From: Tidjanibacter sp.
Lineage (GTDB): Bacteria; Bacteroidota; Bacteroidia; Bacteroidales; Rikenellaceae
Reading direction: 5' to 3'
Assembly (NCBI GenBank): GCA_017466345.1
Contig: JAFTUI010000024.1
Span: 93,410 to 157,409, forward strand
DNA: 64,000 nucleotides
Below are positions 13,903 to 55,842 of this stretch, piece after piece; positions within the stretch are counted from its first letter, which is position 1; the number at the start of each line of letters is the position of its first letter. A program made the position numbers and the translations under genes. The notes under the pieces are model-generated. The model was given only the letters and a program-made list of their open reading frames with translations. It made no database searches and was not told the origin of the DNA.

Positions 13903-16791
13903 ATGAAGAGAATAATCTTGTTTATAGGATGTGTTATTTTGGGCATTGGTTTCGCCTTTGCCCAAAATAGCGGCATTCTCAAAGCGACACTCAAAGATAG
14001 CAAGAGTGGCGAGGGTATCAATGGCGCTGTCATCGAACTTACCTCTTCTGCCAATGGCAAGTCACAGTACTACACGAGTGGCTATCAAGGTAAAGTCGAG
14101 ATCAAAAACCTTACCCCCACCACATACAATATGACCATTACCTTCTTGGGCTACAAGGAGTACACCAAGAGGGTAAAAATCGGTGCAGGCGTAAACAACC
14201 TCGGTGCGATAAAATTAGAGGAAGACGCCACCATCATTGAGCAGGTAGAGATTAATGGCTTTTTGGGCACTTCGACCAAAGGCGACACCGTAAGCTACAA
14301 CGCTGCGGCATTCAAGACCGTACGCGATGCGAGCGTAGAGGGTTTGCTATCCAAGATGCCAGGCATTACCGTAGGTGGCGATGGATCGGTAACAGCTCAG
14401 GGCGAGAGTGTCGAGAAGGTATTTGTGGATGGCAAAGAGTTCTTTGGCGAGGACGTATCAACAACCATCAAAACCATCCCTGCCGAGATGGTATCTAAGG
14501 TGGAGGTCTATGATAAACTCTCCGACAAGGCAGAGTTTACGGGTTTGGACGATGGCGAGGGCTATAAGGCTATCAACATCGTAACCTCACTCGGCAAGCG
14601 CCGAGGTGTCTTTGGCAAGGTCTATGGCTCATACGGTTACCCCGACAAATATAGCGTGGGTGGCAACGCCAACCTCTTCAATGGCGATGAGAAGATTTCG
14701 ATTATCGCTATGGCTAACAACATCAACCAACTCAACTTCTCGTTTGAGGATATTGTTGGAGCCACCTCATCTGCAAACGTAGCCTCTTCGGGAGGTGGCG
14801 GTGGAGGTATGCACGGAGGAGGCGGTATGCGTCAGGCCCGCAACTTTATGGTGCGTCCTATGTCGGGCATTTCCACTGTGCAGTCTGTTGGTGTGAACTA
14901 CGCCAACCAATGGGATAAGTTGGAGGTGCAGAGCAGCTATTTCTTCAACCACTCCACAACCATCAACGAGAATACCACAGACAAGACCATCCTTAGTAGC
15001 GACTCCTACAAGGAGCACTCGCTGAGCGAGAGTAGTTCCGATGGCGAGAACTGGAACCACCGTCTGAATTTGCGTCTGGACTATAAGTTCAGCAAGAGCA
15101 GCTCGCTGATGGTGCGTGCCAACGCCAGCTTGCAACAATACGAGAACACCATAATAGGGTCGGAAAATATCAGCAACGCCGCAACGGGCGAGGCTCTAAA
15201 AAGTATGACCTCCGAGAACAACGATGAACGCATCGGTACATACGGTAACATCTTCGCTCTCTACCGCACACGCTTGGGCAAACCAGGTAGGACCATTACG
15301 GTAAATTCGAGGGTTAATTGGAACTCCAACGAGAGTCACAACATTCCCCTTTACAGTTTTACCATTCCTACCGACTCGCTCTATCAGAACATAATAGACA
15401 ACCTCAGTGGTAGCAACTCTTTCCGTGCCGAGGCGACCTATACCGAGCCCCTCAGCAAGCAGGTACAGATGGACTTTGAGTATGAATTCCGCCACAATAT
15501 GGACAACCAGAACAAGGTGGCTCAGGTGTGTATCAACAATGTGGAGGACAAGACGCTCAGCACCCTACTCTCCAACATCTCCGAGAGTGGCTATACCATC
15601 CACCGAGTAGGTCCCGGCATTAACCTCTCGACCGACAAGGTTAAGTTCAACGCACAGGTGAGGTATCAGTACTCTTCGTTGGATAACTCTCAGACACTGC
15701 CCAAAGAGTTGTCGCAGTCCTACAATTTCAATGATGTAACCTATCGTGGCAACCTGACGGTCAACTTCAACCAGACTAACTCGCTGAGAATGAGGCTACA
15801 CTCACGCACGCAAAATCCCTCTATCGGTCAGTTGCAAGATGCTACGGACGTCAATGGTACGAGTTTTACAGCGGGTAATCCCGACCTCAAACCGAGCTAC
15901 ACTCACAGCCTTATGACGTTCTACACCAATACGAACATCGAGAAGGGACAAACCTTTATGTTGCACGGTGGTATGTGGCTTACGACAAGGTCTATTGCCT
16001 CGTCTATTCAGATAAACAACCCCGCATTTACCAATCCCGTGACGGGTATGCCTTTGGGGGCGGGCGAGACATATAGTCGCTACGAGAATATCTCAGGTTG
16101 GAACAACTGGAACATCTTTACGGGTGTGAGCTATGGCTTCCCACTGACTGCTCTCAAAAGCAACATTACGCTGTCACTCAACGCCAACTTCAACAACACT
16201 CCGAGCAAGATCAACGACTACCTGAACATTATGAAGGGTCAGTACTACACATCGGGTGTGCAGATTGGTAGCAATGTGAGCGAGAATTTGGACTTTACGC
16301 TGGCTTACAATTTCAGCTACTCCATCAACGACAACTCTTCGGCTATCTACTCGCAGCTCAATAGGTACCTGAGCCACAATGCAAGGGCGAACTTCAAATG
16401 GGTGGCTTGGAAGGGCTTTACGCTGACAGCAAATGCCACCTATAACCAATACAAAGGCATTACCGACAGCTACAACGAGGAGATATTGCTCTGCAACGCC
16501 TATATAGGCAAAAAACTCTTCAAGGACGAGCGTGGCGAGCTGAGCATTGGCGTGAACGACATTTTCAACCAGAACCGCGATTTCCGCCGCTCGGTAGGTG
16601 CGAACTACATCCAGAACACCACCAACCTCGCCATTGGCAGATATGTTGCAGTGCAGTTTGTCTACAACATTCGCGCATTTGGCAACGGGTCTTCGGCAAA
16701 GGATTTCGATAATATAGGTATGGGGGGTGCTTCACGCGGAGGCTTTCCTGGTGGTGGTCGCCCAATGGGTCCCCCACCCCATATGAGATAG
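13903..16791 (+). CDS. TonB-dependent receptor-like outer membrane beta-barrel protein
   Basis: A 962-residue outer-membrane protein with a signal peptide ending near FAFAQ. A CarboxypepD-regulatory-like domain (about 22-110) is followed by a plug-like region (TVSYNAAAFKTVRDASVEGLLSKMPG and KVFVDGKEFFGEDV, given as positions near 128-185). A long beta-barrel of the OMP_b-brl_3 type completes the protein. Unusual Gly/Met/His-rich insertions lie around residues 295-310 (GGGGGGMHGGGGMRQ), and a Gly/Pro-rich tail ends in PPPHMR. The cargo is unknown. It lies 51 bases after the Cys-rich protein gene and ends at a strong terminator. Confidence 0.88.
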   Translation: MKRIILFIGCVILGIGFAFAQNSGILKATLKDSKSGEGINGAVIELTSSANGKSQYYTSGYQGKVEIKNLTPTTYNMTITFLGYKEYTKRVKIGAGVNNLGAIKLEEDATIIEQVEINGFLGTSTKGDTVSYNAAAFKTVRDASVEGLLSKMPGITVGGDGSVTAQGESVEKVFVDGKEFFGEDVSTTIKTIPAEMVSKVEVYDKLSDKAEFTGLDDGEGYKAINIVTSLGKRRGVFGKVYGSYGYPDKYSVGGNANLFNGDEKISIIAMANNINQLNFSFEDIVGATSSANVASSGGGGGGMHGGGGMRQARNFMVRPMSGISTVQSVGVNYANQWDKLEVQSSYFFNHSTTINENTTDKTILSSDSYKEHSLSESSSDGENWNHRLNLRLDYKFSKSSSLMVRANASLQQYENTIIGSENISNAATGEALKSMTSENNDERIGTYGNIFALYRTRLGKPGRTITVNSRVNWNSNESHNIPLYSFTIPTDSLYQNIIDNLSGSNSFRAEATYTEPLSKQVQMDFEYEFRHNMDNQNKVAQVCINNVEDKTLSTLLSNISESGYTIHRVGPGINLSTDKVKFNAQVRYQYSSLDNSQTLPKELSQSYNFNDVTYRGNLTVNFNQTNSLRMRLHSRTQNPSIGQLQDATDVNGTSFTAGNPDLKPSYTHSLMTFYTNTNIEKGQTFMLHGGMWLTTRSIASSIQINNPAFTNPVTGMPLGAGETYSRYENISGWNNWNIFTGVSYGFPLTALKSNITLSLNANFNNTPSKINDYLNIMKGQYYTSGVQIGSNVSENLDFTLAYNFSYSINDNSSAIYSQLNRYLSHNARANFKWVAWKGFTLTANATYNQYKGITDSYNEEILLCNAYIGKKLFKDERGELSIGVNDIFNQNRDFRRSVGANYIQNTTNLAIGRYVAVQFVYNIRAFGNGSSAKDFDNIGMGGASRGGFPGGGRPMGPPPHMR

Positions 16792-52570: not shown

Positions 52571-53443
52571 ATGGTAAAAATGTTACTACATAACCTTATT
52601 TCTTATCTCGCAATTGGAGATGAAGCATTCTCCTCTCTGCGCGGAATTGAGCCACAATACGACCCTCGTGGCAGAATGATTTTTATTGCAGGGCGCCAGA
52701 GTGCTGTTTTCAAAGTTGCCTACGAGGGTAGAGATTACGCCCTGAAATGTTACCAAAGTACAAGCACTTTGCGGGCGGAGCGTTGCAACTATCTGAGTAC
52801 CCATGACCCACAAGGACTCTTTGTGCATCCACGCTACTACTGCAATGAGTTGTGGACCAAAGAGGGAATGATAGATGTCGCACTCTATGAATGGGTGGAT
52901 AGTCGCTCACTGGGGTGGTATATCCGCAAAGCAATACACGACAACAGCCCAAGCCAACTACAAAAACTCCTCGCCCAATTCTGTCGTTTAGCATCCAACA
53001 TATTGGACCAAGAGTGGCGACACGGCGACCTGAAAATAGAGAACATCGTATTAAGAGAGAGCGACAGGGAGATGGTGTTGGTTGATTGTGACGCACTCTA
53101 TGCGCCATCGCTCACACCTTCGGGCGAGCTCGGAACGCCCAATTGGGTACATCCCGCGCGAGGAGAGAACTACGATGCCCACATAGACGACTATGGCATT
53201 GCACTATTGGTTGTGTCACTTGCGGCACTCGCGCTCAATCCACAACTCTTTGTGGGCGAGTGTGCTGTGGCTATCCCCTCGCTCGGCAATCGTAGCGAAA
53301 TAGCCAAACTACTTGCTCCATACGAAGAGCTTACAACCCTACACGAAGCACTTTATAATCAAACCTATATCATCGACAATCTAAACCACAACTTACGATG
53401 TATAGAGCACCTATCACACGACTTAACAAAGCAGCCTTTGTAA
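52571..53443 (+). CDS. Bacterial protein kinase-like enzyme of a VWA-linked cassette
   Basis: A 290-residue cytoplasmic protein kinase-fold protein. The ATP-anchoring Lys is K59 in DYALKCY, and the catalytic loop is HGDLKIEN with H151, D153, K155 and N158. The metal loop is LVDCDALYAPS rather than DFG. The activation region has GTPNWVHPARG. The domain resembles kinases with a lvDxDxxyxP motif found beside VWA genes. It overlaps the VWA gene by 46 bases, an unusually long coupling. I infer it phosphorylates a partner in the cassette. Confidence 0.86.
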   Translation: MVKMLLHNLISYLAIGDEAFSSLRGIEPQYDPRGRMIFIAGRQSAVFKVAYEGRDYALKCYQSTSTLRAERCNYLSTHDPQGLFVHPRYYCNELWTKEGMIDVALYEWVDSRSLGWYIRKAIHDNSPSQLQKLLAQFCRLASNILDQEWRHGDLKIENIVLRESDREMVLVDCDALYAPSLTPSGELGTPNWVHPARGENYDAHIDDYGIALLVVSLAALALNPQLFVGECAVAIPSLGNRSEIAKLLAPYEELTTLHEALYNQTYIIDNLNHNLRCIEHLSHDLTKQPL

Positions 53444-54243
53444 TACTCATTGACCGTTCGGGTTCAATGGCAGAGGAGGTTACATTCGAGGGAAGACTCT
53501 GCACCAAAGCCGAAGCAACAGCTGAGGCGGTAAATACACTCCTCGAAGAGATTATAAATCGTTCATACCGAGATCGGTTTATTGGCGACTACTTTGACGT
53601 TGCCATAATTGGCTATGGTGGCGAAGGCGTAGAGAGTCTGCTCGGTAGCGGCTTTAAGCCCATAACCTTCGTTGACTCTATGTACATACCCTCGCGCACA
53701 AAGATAGTAAGACACACTCTGCCCTCTGGCAGACGCTGCGACACAGTGGTTGAGACTCGCCAATGGTTGGAACCACAAGCCAGCGGTCAAACTCCTATGG
53801 GCAAAGCATTTGCAAAAGCATACCGTATGGTCGCCTCGTGGTGTCGTAAGCATCCGAACAGTTTCCCTCCCATCGTAATAAACATCACCGATGGCGAGGC
53901 TACGGATGTCAGCGCAGAGAAGATTAGGGCTTTGGCAGAGCAGATAAAGAGTACCTCCACAAACGATGGCGGCACACTACTGATGAACATACATCTGGCA
54001 TCGCAACACGATAGCGAGTTCCGTCCGCTCCGCTTTCCTGCCGAGGGATCACAACTGCCAATCAACCGCCATTCGCGTCTGCTCTACGACATTTCGAGCA
54101 CCCTACCGCCTATCTACAACTCCTCTATCGAACCCTCGCACAACGAGGAACCACCTTTTAGGGCGATTTGCTACAACGCCCCTATTGATGACATTTTAGG
54201 GCTGCTCGTCATAGGCTCATTGAGTATCAACCAACTCTTTTAG
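53398..54243 (+). CDS. TerY-like VWA domain protein
   Basis: A 281-residue cytoplasmic von Willebrand factor A domain protein without signal peptide. The metal-ion-dependent adhesion site is complete: D19-x-S21-x-S23 in LIDRSGSM, T132 in GQTPMGKA, and D165 in INITDGEATD. This format matches TerY-type VWA proteins of Ter-associated stress systems. The start lies inside the end of the kinase gene, and the next gene begins 2 bases after its stop. Those two links make a three-protein complex or pathway likely. Confidence 0.9.
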   Translation: MYRAPITRLNKAAFVILIDRSGSMAEEVTFEGRLCTKAEATAEAVNTLLEEIINRSYRDRFIGDYFDVAIIGYGGEGVESLLGSGFKPITFVDSMYIPSRTKIVRHTLPSGRRCDTVVETRQWLEPQASGQTPMGKAFAKAYRMVASWCRKHPNSFPPIVINITDGEATDVSAEKIRALAEQIKSTSTNDGGTLLMNIHLASQHDSEFRPLRFPAEGSQLPINRHSRLLYDISSTLPPIYNSSIEPSHNEEPPFRAICYNAPIDDILGLLVIGSLSINQLF

Positions 54244-54245
54244 GT

Positions 54246-55718
54246 ATGGGTACACCTTGGACCATAGAGGCTCTTGTGGAGGCACTATCACAACCTCAGT
54301 TGCTCGCGCCCACACTTGCGCATAGTTATCATCCCATAGAGCCCATCAAACACAACTACCGCATTGAGCACAACCTCATACGCATTCCATTTTCGGACGG
54401 AAGAAAGAGGTGGATTCTAACAATACCCACAGCGGGAACTTTTGAGCTGACGGAGCGCGAAATTCGCACAAGATGCACACTCGCACATACTTCGTCACTG
54501 CTTGCCGAAGCGCACTACATACGCTCGGCGGTAACACTCTTCGACAACAACTCTACACCACACACCCTGCCAGCACTCTTGCAAGAAGAGACGCTACCCA
54601 TCTATGAGTTTCTGCGCCTGAATTACTCCACGCAGAATATACATTGCCTGCGCCGAGCTTTGGAGAGCGTGGCACTCGCCACAACAAGGCTCCTTCGGGA
54701 TTCGTTCACTCACGGTCATCTCTCGCGCCACAATGTAGGGTTCGACAAGGAGTGTCGTTTGAAACTTTCCGACTATCCCATTGCCGAGCGTAAGAGTGAC
54801 GATGTGGAGCAACTCGCCAAAGCAGCAGTATTAATATACATCGCTGCAAGTCAAAAAGATGCGTATAAATTACTCGCCACCAAGAGTCGCAATATCGAGG
54901 AGCACGCAAAGCGACTGAGGGCTATACTTGTAGCCTCGGAGCACTACACCATACGTCCTCTTGTAAGATTGATTAAAGGGCTTATGCACAAAGCCAACTC
55001 AGATAGTATATCCGACTCACTCGGCGAGTTAGCTATGGAGCCATTTCGCCCTCTACCGCTCCTTACGGGACTCCTATCGGGTAACGAGGAATATGCCGCC
55101 ACATCCACTCCCCACCTCTCCTTTGCAGAGAGTTTGAAGGTAGATTTTGACTCTTGCGATGAGGTGCTACCAGCTGGCGAAGGTTTTGTAAGGTATCGCC
55201 AGAGCGGCCTTTGGGGCTACGCCCGCACCGATGGCAGCCGACTGCCCATAGAACGCATACTGCTCTATGCAGATGAGTTCCACAATGGCAGGGCTGTGGT
55301 CAAAACCTCGCGTGGCTATGGCTTGATGAATACCGATGGGCGTATGGTTATGAATGATGTGTGGGAGGACCTCGATTGGCACCACCAAGAGGCGATTGTG
55401 ACAGCGGCTGACAAGGGCGGCAAATGGCATATCTACGACTCTTGCGGCAGACAACTCTCCTCGGTGGCTTGCGACTGGATGGGATGCGTGTCGGAGGGCT
55501 TTGTGGTCGGCAGATGTGGCAATAAGTTTGGCTACTTCTCCACCTCAGGACAAAAACTCACGAACTTCATCTACAATGAGGCATATAGCTTCCACAATGG
55601 CTTGGCGCGGGTGTCGTTTGGCTCCTCGCACTACCATATCGACACCACCTTCCACCGCCTCGCACCCCACGAAGAGGAGTTCATCCAACGCTTCCGAGGC
55701 CTGAAAACCACTCCCTAA
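54246..55718 (+). CDS. Pseudokinase-WG repeat protein
   Basis: A 490-residue cytoplasmic protein. Residues about 30-280 look like a degenerate kinase C-lobe. HGHLSRHN (H156-H158) replaces HGDLKxEN, so the catalytic Asp is His. KLSDYP (D176) follows where the metal loop would be, and SDDVEQLAKAAVLIYIA matches the kinase in the first gene. Residues about 300-485 contain WG-type repeats such as SGLWGYARTDGSRLPI and NKFGYFSTSGQKLTNFIYNE, which usually form beta-rich binding surfaces. It may be the scaffold or target-recognition subunit of the cassette. The name is by inference. Confidence 0.82.
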   Translation: MGTPWTIEALVEALSQPQLLAPTLAHSYHPIEPIKHNYRIEHNLIRIPFSDGRKRWILTIPTAGTFELTEREIRTRCTLAHTSSLLAEAHYIRSAVTLFDNNSTPHTLPALLQEETLPIYEFLRLNYSTQNIHCLRRALESVALATTRLLRDSFTHGHLSRHNVGFDKECRLKLSDYPIAERKSDDVEQLAKAAVLIYIAASQKDAYKLLATKSRNIEEHAKRLRAILVASEHYTIRPLVRLIKGLMHKANSDSISDSLGELAMEPFRPLPLLTGLLSGNEEYAATSTPHLSFAESLKVDFDSCDEVLPAGEGFVRYRQSGLWGYARTDGSRLPIERILLYADEFHNGRAVVKTSRGYGLMNTDGRMVMNDVWEDLDWHHQEAIVTAADKGGKWHIYDSCGRQLSSVACDWMGCVSEGFVVGRCGNKFGYFSTSGQKLTNFIYNEAYSFHNGLARVSFGSSHYHIDTTFHRLAPHEEEFIQRFRGLKTTP

Positions 55719-55740
55719 CCCCACCCTATCACAAAACAAT

Positions 55741-55766
55741 CACGGGTATCTTTTTTGATACCCGTG
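55741..55766. repeat. Hairpin 1 after the kinase cassette
   Basis: Perfect 10-bp arms CACGGGTATC and GATACCCGTG flank a T6 loop. It shares 22 bases, as the reverse complement, with hairpin 2. Confidence 0.85.
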
Positions 55767-55810
55767 AAGAAAGGGAGCGGCTCTATTATGGTTGGTGGGA
55801 GAGAAAAAAT

Positions 55811-55842
55811 ACTCGCGGGTATCAAAAAAGATACCCGCGAGT
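55811..55842. repeat. Hairpin 2 before DUF4293 gene
   Basis: Perfect 13-bp arms ACTCGCGGGTATC and GATACCCGCGAGT flank an A6 loop. The two hairpins sit between converging genes and probably terminate or protect both transcripts, but neither has a classical trailing T run. Confidence 0.85.

Follow-up and report, generated by a model that had tools for sequence, protein, structure and literature searches.

The window analysed here, a stretch of 64,000 nucleotides from the draft genome (1.82 Mb) of a Tidjanibacter sp., carries at positions 52571 to 55718 three adjoining genes, which encode a protein kinase (gene 1), a VWA protein (gene 2) and a pseudokinase fused to WG repeats (gene 3). We consider it probable that this trio is a derivative of the TerY-P system, in which a duplicated kinase-WG gene was turned into a pseudokinase-WG partner and the PP2C phosphatase was lost, and that the three proteins form one chromosomal signalling module with an assembly switch. 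The parts on which this reading leans are listed below, with the open reading frames (ORFs) numbered along the window.

52571..53443, + strand: gene 1, protein kinase of 290 amino acids (ORF; PADLOC STK_OB match, 6.7e-17)
52745..52747, + strand: beta-3 lysine K59 of gene 1, in ALKCY (Lys in 29 and Arg in 6 of the 35 genuine kinase rows)
53021..53029, + strand: catalytic loop HGD of gene 1, H151-D153 (alignment of catalytic residues)
53398..53443, + strand: overlap of genes 1 and 2, 46 bases (ORFs)
53398..54243, + strand: gene 2, TerY-like VWA protein of 281 amino acids (PADLOC TerY, 1.9e-49 over residues 2-274)
54246..55718, + strand: gene 3, pseudokinase-WG protein of 490 amino acids (ORF, Pfam, profile comparison)
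54246..55115, + strand: kinase-derived N-terminal part of gene 3, residues 1-290, predicted to be catalytically degenerate and the more variable part (hhalign, identities by region)
54711..54719, + strand: HGH (H156-H158) of gene 3, replacing HGD (none of the 36 family rows with a residue at this column has Asp)
55173..55655, + strand: WG-repeat region of gene 3, residues about 310-470, the better conserved part (Pfam WG_beta_rep, 3.6e-10)

The ORF coordinates agree with the tight coupling that the sequence-only reading of this DNA had claimed, in which the 46-base overlap is followed by a gap of 2 bases between genes 2 and 3. Among 13 other loci of the same genus, 10 have an overlap of 18-73 bases between the mechanically called ORFs of genes 1 and 2, and in the remaining three the ORF starts lie too far upstream for the overlap to be judged. 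For the wider comparison, 43 stretches of the family were used, which represent 42 distinct loci with the VWA gene. They amount to about one locus per genus plus extra ones from two genera, and are biased to strong VWA matches; g184 is among the genera left out. The family is Rikenellaceae, as inferred from one named member, the Tidjanibacter metagenome-assembled genome L032, whose contig is shared with G402, a genome of the same genus.

Gene 1 carries the motifs K59 (ALKCY), HGDLKIEN and VDCD, by which it had been read as an apparently active kinase. PADLOC calls it STK_OB through the kinase part alone, and all 21 sequences of the gene 1 family alignment (A4) matched this model, while Pfam on single sequences gave weak kinase and VWA matches below the cut-off. 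Across the family, the catalytic Asp is D in 34 of the 35 genuine kinase rows and N in one (L069), and all 35 retain the catalytic-loop Asn and the metal-binding Asp; the row list held 36 entries, from which L077 was left out, its upstream gene encoding a WG protein and no kinase. Gene 1 is predicted to be an active Ser/Thr kinase. The STK_OB match stops at model position 234 of 562, and no OB-fold or zinc-ribbon Pfam domain was found in gene 1. A WG profile detected WG repeats on gene 1 in 21 of the 35 family loci; the gene 1 of the window has no WG tail.

Gene 2 is matched by the PADLOC TerY model over its full length. Its metal ion-dependent adhesion site (MIDAS) is complete, with D19, S21, S23, T132 and D165, as the earlier reading had it, and the five positions are kept in 39, 41, 41, 41 and 42 of the 42 loci, the rest being one Asn and gaps. 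Because genes 1 and 2 match PADLOC STK_OB and TerY, we take them as TerY-P-type proteins, and the proposal of a TerY-like kinase/VWA pair is supported.

The third protein had been described as a kinase-like domain, with the catalytic Asp replaced by His, joined to WG repeats. The repeats scored above the Pfam cut-off for WG_beta_rep (PF14903; 40.1 against 25.6 bits). PADLOC gave no match for gene 3, and Pfam did not detect kinase likeness in the N-terminal part of the single gene 3 sequence. When profiles were compared, the N-terminal part of gene 3 aligned with the gene 1 family over 253 columns (hhalign probability 100, E 9.9e-41), and this alignment takes in the lead-in ahead of the kinase domain. 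The same N-terminal profile also reaches solved kinases, the best being GCN2 at 5e-9, with mainly the catalytic-loop region covered; single-sequence searches against these gave weak matches, and profiles were required. Within the gene 3 alignment (A5, 20 members), five sequences matched STK_OB at E <= 0.01, the gene 3 of the window not being among them. HGHLSRHN stands in gene 3 at the place of HGDLKIEN in gene 1, and T59 is aligned to K59 of gene 1 in the window (hhalign). In the 36 of 41 family rows that have a letter at the catalytic-Asp column (the other five are gaps), the residue is N in 14, R in 5, S in 5, H in 4, A in 4, G in 3 and F in 1, and Asp in none. Judged by these profiles, the N-terminal part of gene 3 is a kinase-derived, catalytically degenerate domain. 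When gene 3 alone was searched over the order, the matches were mostly to WG repeats, and among the matches listed, two genomes besides its own matched outside the WG region. Separately, the window's own genome has another WG-repeat match (L035; contig C22, about 15325-15693) within an open frame of 1240 codons, and WG matches in frames of about 1240-1400 codons were seen in several genomes of the same genus.

Most of the family genomes that were sampled have the trio. With the VWA profile, 184 of 201 family genomes were matched, usually once a genome, and with the kinase profile 185 of 201; both profiles reached 22 of 22 genera. Because the kinase profile can match gene 3, the kinase count is an upper figure where matches are weak. 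The gene 3 profile (E <= 1e-10) matched 160 of 201 genomes, also in 22 of 22 genera, a count that may err both ways because the profile catches other WG proteins and was built from the genus of the window. The VWA gene was missing from 17 genomes and the kinase from 16, and both were absent from 10, against 1.35 expected (Fisher p 5e-9). Incomplete drafts could explain part of this co-absence; five of the 10 genomes (G337, G358, G364, G405 and G421) are at least 90% complete. G337 is of the same genus and 99% complete, and its stretch L147 has the NadC-like gene, with none of our five models matching there. Upstream of this NadC-like gene lie aldolase-like and Nuo-like genes, identified by reading. 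A further genome of the genus, G345 (99% complete), has no NadC-like match, yet the trio is present. Beyond the family, the VWA profile matched 6 of 294 genomes in the order (its own and two of the same genus not counted) and 13 of 296 in the phylum (its own not counted). In a collection of named genomes, the sole VWA relative found was L032.

The gene order is also kept. Gene 3 adjoins the VWA gene downstream in 41 of the 42 loci, and a genuine kinase lies upstream of the VWA gene on the same strand in 35, which is in line with the claim that the three genes are conserved together. A chance neighbourhood was ruled out by this family-wide order and the co-absence of kinase and VWA gene. The pairwise distances of kinase and VWA protein were correlated in 15 loci, with a partial correlation of 0.68 after correction for a housekeeping gene. 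In five loci (L083, L099, L100, L101 and L102) a DUF4954-type gene is found between kinase and VWA gene; Pfam, applied to L083, gave DUF4954 and DUF6819.

TerY-P is described in two reports as VWA protein, PP2C and kinase (PMC11090510, PMC4978471). Our own PP2C profile had no match in any of the 42 family loci, whereas in the loci outside the family PP2C was found beside the VWA gene in 16 of 16, with a kinase within the stretch in 14. These 16 loci were taken from 21 matches (6 of the order, 8 of the 13 of the phylum, and 2 plasmids), and the PP2C profile was built from six of them, whose PP2C was identified by PADLOC (L117, L118 and L119), by the record (L122) or by reading (L114 and L116). 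PP2C_2 is absent from the genome of the window. Because TerY-P in print consists of VWA protein, PP2C and kinase, the outside loci are taken as ordinary TerY-P-like loci and the family form as the exception. These counts bear out the earlier suggestion that the phosphatase is absent and that a pseudokinase-WG protein takes its place.

A tree of 87 kinase domains placed the 14 outside kinases on one side (support 95) and genes 1 and 3 of the family on the other. The 38 rows of gene 3 came together, and the rows of gene 1 came together in 34 of 35, the exception being L070. As judged from these alignments and this tree, genes 1 (kinase-WG) and 3 are paralogues, and gene 3 has lost the catalytic Asp. 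A locus outside the family, L139 (genome G768), with a kinase-WG protein, a VWA protein and PP2C, is of the type expected for the ancestor. The course would have started from a TerY-P system with a kinase-WG gene. This gene would have been duplicated at the root of the family, one copy losing catalysis, with PP2C lost as well, and part of the window's genus would later have lost the WG repeats of gene 1. Duplication, loss of catalysis, loss of PP2C and loss of WG is the simplest course from TerY-P to the trio, and we infer the steps in this order.

In the module as we propose it, gene 3 would dock on gene 1 by an inherited kinase-kinase contact and regulate it without catalysis of its own; the WG repeats of gene 3 would offer a sensing or target-binding surface. 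Gene 2 would be the adaptor that brings kinase and target together through its Mg2+-loaded MIDAS. The module would then be switched by assembly, with the pseudokinase-WG protein on or off the kinase, and would have no dedicated phosphatase. The trio most likely serves the cell in a standing role, in signalling or stress, rather than as a mobile defence cassette.

Several observations weigh against this picture. No kinase was found beside the VWA gene in 7 of the 42 loci; for L073 and L079 the available upstream sequence was 1.5 and 2.4 kb, and in all seven genomes the kinase profile matches elsewhere (the places were seen for six). Gene 3 is split into two ORFs in L070 and L072, and the VWA gene is broken in L070. 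The correlation of distances is weak for kinase and gene 3 (partial 0.24) and modest for gene 3 and VWA protein (0.36). In the tree, which was made by a quick method and has several long branches, the grouping of gene 3 has a support of just 40. Six of the 35 kinase rows (L083, L099, L100, L101, L102 and L103) have Arg for the beta-3 Lys, so that some family kinases may be weak or odd, and among the gene 3 rows of the relatives 6 of 40 have Lys in this column, so that the loss of ATP contacts in gene 3 is not uniform. Within the genus, the median identity of gene 3 is 20-30% in the kinase part and 46% in the WG part; the kinase half, being poorly conserved compared with the WG half, may matter less than assumed. 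As for the phosphatase, the PADLOC TerY-P PP2C model matched none of the 201 family genomes, but the control genomes were silent in this search as well, so that this search alone is no proof of absence; the same model does recognise the PP2C of L117, L118 and L119. Two of the 21 genomes searched, which belong to the same genus, carry another PP2C_2 protein at a distance from the trio.

The genes around the window's trio have the look of housekeeping genes. On the upstream flank, NadC-like and DPP4-like genes lie on the other strand, and glycosyltransferase 2, DUF4199-like, Sua5-like, MltG-like and DAHP synthase/chorismate mutase-like genes follow downstream (names by sequence reading). Within the window's genus, the NadC-like gene is the trio's neighbour, with the usual orientation in 10 loci (counting the window) and an inverted one in another. 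Because the trio sits stably among core genes, a standing cell function is favoured, and a linkage to a mobile or defence locus was not borne out, with such neighbours and with the trio in most family genomes. One further feature lies just downstream.

55740..55842, no strand assigned: two hairpins GGGTATC-W6-GATACCC, between convergent transcripts

This motif has nine sites in the genome, against none for a reversed control, and is a genome-wide repeat; the two hairpins downstream of the trio are possible terminators.

A defence role was weighed as an alternative. In it, the trio would be a fixed, lineage-specific anti-phage TerY-P system, whose pseudokinase-WG protein senses infection and frees the kinase, which halts the cell or the phage; we regard this as rather unlikely. 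Its components are those of a defence system, and TerY-P is active, according to two papers, against T7-like phages (PMC7699616) and against Autographiviridae in P. aeruginosa (PMC10889362). Three genomes that are 99% complete (G337, G358 and G364) have neither kinase nor VWA gene, as would suit a defence system. The trio also diverges much faster than its neighbours, and because of this a defence role keeps some weight. In 12 loci of the same genus, the median identity to the window was 42, 51 and 38% for genes 1 to 3 (pairwise alignment), against 82% for the NadC-like (10 loci), 60% for the DPP4-like (11), 85% for the glycosyltransferase (4) and 62% for the DUF4199-like gene (4), as measured by the best tblastn piece; in 15 loci of the family the kinase reached 38%, the VWA protein 45% and gene 3 25%, compared with 68% for the DAHP synthase-like gene. 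Fast divergence fits genes in conflict, but weakly constrained regulators show the same. The wide presence of the trio in the family, usually with one VWA match a genome and among housekeeping-like genes, speaks against an anti-phage system, as does the part of STK_OB with the OB fold, which is unmatched. In addition, the VWA protein had no match in phage records, viral contigs gave none in a two-pattern scan, and the two matches in plasmids are distant, cyanobacterial and both accompanied by PP2C. A mobile island is disfavoured by the same results and by the native-like GC content of the trio (48-52%, against 50.1% for the window); GC at third codon positions is 0.50-0.58, somewhat under the 0.60-0.71 of six neighbours. 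In a bolder reading of the trio's origin, an anti-phage phospho-switch was domesticated once in the Rikenellaceae stem via the kinase-WG duplication, the pseudokinase-WG protein replacing the phosphatase, and became a near-universal, phosphatase-free complex behind a core biosynthetic operon. This is a possible scenario, which we put forward tentatively.

Gene 3 could instead be essentially a WG-repeat binding protein, whose kinase-derived half is decaying baggage with no regulatory job. The difference in identity between its halves is in favour of this, and in several loci gene 3 has merely about 300-350 amino acids. We hold it to be unlikely, since the A5 profile recognises the kinase-derived part in 40 of 41 gene 3 ORFs (at the 41st locus, L072, it is in the adjoining ORF), and positions in this half are conserved, such as 24 (Leu, 90%), 156 (His, 83%) and 186 (Asp, 86%).

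Still less credit is given to a role in which the trio shares an operon with aromatic amino-acid biosynthesis and regulates it, acting on the enzymes or the flux. A same-strand cluster of aromatic amino-acid genes precedes the trio in 13 of the 42 loci (L067, L080, L098 and ten others), which represent 11 genera; prephenate dehydratase was found in 12, aminotransferase in 11, and prephenate dehydrogenase and DAHP synthase/chorismate mutase in all 13. In six loci, 11-22 bases separate the end of the DAHP synthase match from the kinase ORF; the DAHP synthase/chorismate mutase-like gene of the window is encoded on the same strand, 4.3 kb downstream. However, 29 of the 42 loci do not have this arrangement, some for short upstream sequence, and the trio of the window's genus is beside nadC. 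The neighbourhood may merely provide steady expression, and the names of the enzymes come from sequence reading.

A tellurite or Ter stress module, suggested by the resemblance of gene 2 to TerY, is very improbable: TerD was found in none of 21 genomes (its own, 12 of the same genus and 8 of the same order), with a model that matched in 2 of 14 controls, and no Ter gene was recognised by eye among the ORFs beside the trio, so that the linkage to Ter genes raised earlier failed to appear.

We therefore return to the phosphatase-free TerY-P derivative. Of the new TerY-like system proposed from the sequence, the TerY-like part stands, and the wholly new part does not, the trio being derived from TerY-P. 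No description of the trio was found among the matches listed in the literature searched, whose coverage was partial, with most subscription papers outside it. If this reading is right, the trio would show, in traceable form, how a bacterial signalling cassette lost its phosphatase and acquired a pseudokinase through duplication of its own kinase, and a possible intermediate would still exist in a living relative (L139). Searches that require PP2C for a TerY-P call would miss the trio.

Compared with proteins of the WG_beta_rep family (PF14903), gene 3 is alike in its C-terminal half, but its WG repeats share a protein with a pseudokinase and are linked to a kinase/VWA pair. L139 shares with the trio a kinase fused to WG repeats, as found on gene 1 in part of the family, and a TerY-like VWA protein, and it differs in that PP2C is present, the kinase is on the other strand and no pseudokinase copy was found in the stretch. 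After L139, the outside kinases that match the gene 1 profile best are those of L115 and L117 (218 and 210 bits). Bacteroidales TerY-P loci with DarT domains (L114, L116 and L117) have a TerY-like VWA protein as the trio does; they differ by PP2C, the DarT domains and DUF6939 (named for L117), and the kinase of L117 has a repeat tail (SEL1-like, by reading). The TerY-like VWA protein of L117 (4771-7667) carries the DarT domain (PF14487; 1.4e-35), as does that of L114 (1244-4280) by the same motif as recognised by reading; in L116 (702-4131) the domain (1.5e-22) is fused to a PP2C-like protein. With the DUF6939 protein nearby and, in L117, a repeat-tailed STK_OB kinase, these loci look like hybrids of TerY-P and DarT. 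The TerY-P triad itself consists of a TerY VWA protein, PP2C and a serine/threonine kinase with a zinc ribbon or OB fold (PADLOC TerY, PP2C and STK_OB). The trio resembles it in a VWA protein that matches TerY over the full length, a kinase that matches the kinase part of STK_OB, and tight gene packing. Unlike the triad, it leaves the OB part unmatched and holds, in place of PP2C, a pseudokinase-WG paralogue of its own kinase, and it is a chromosomal cassette present in most genomes of one family.

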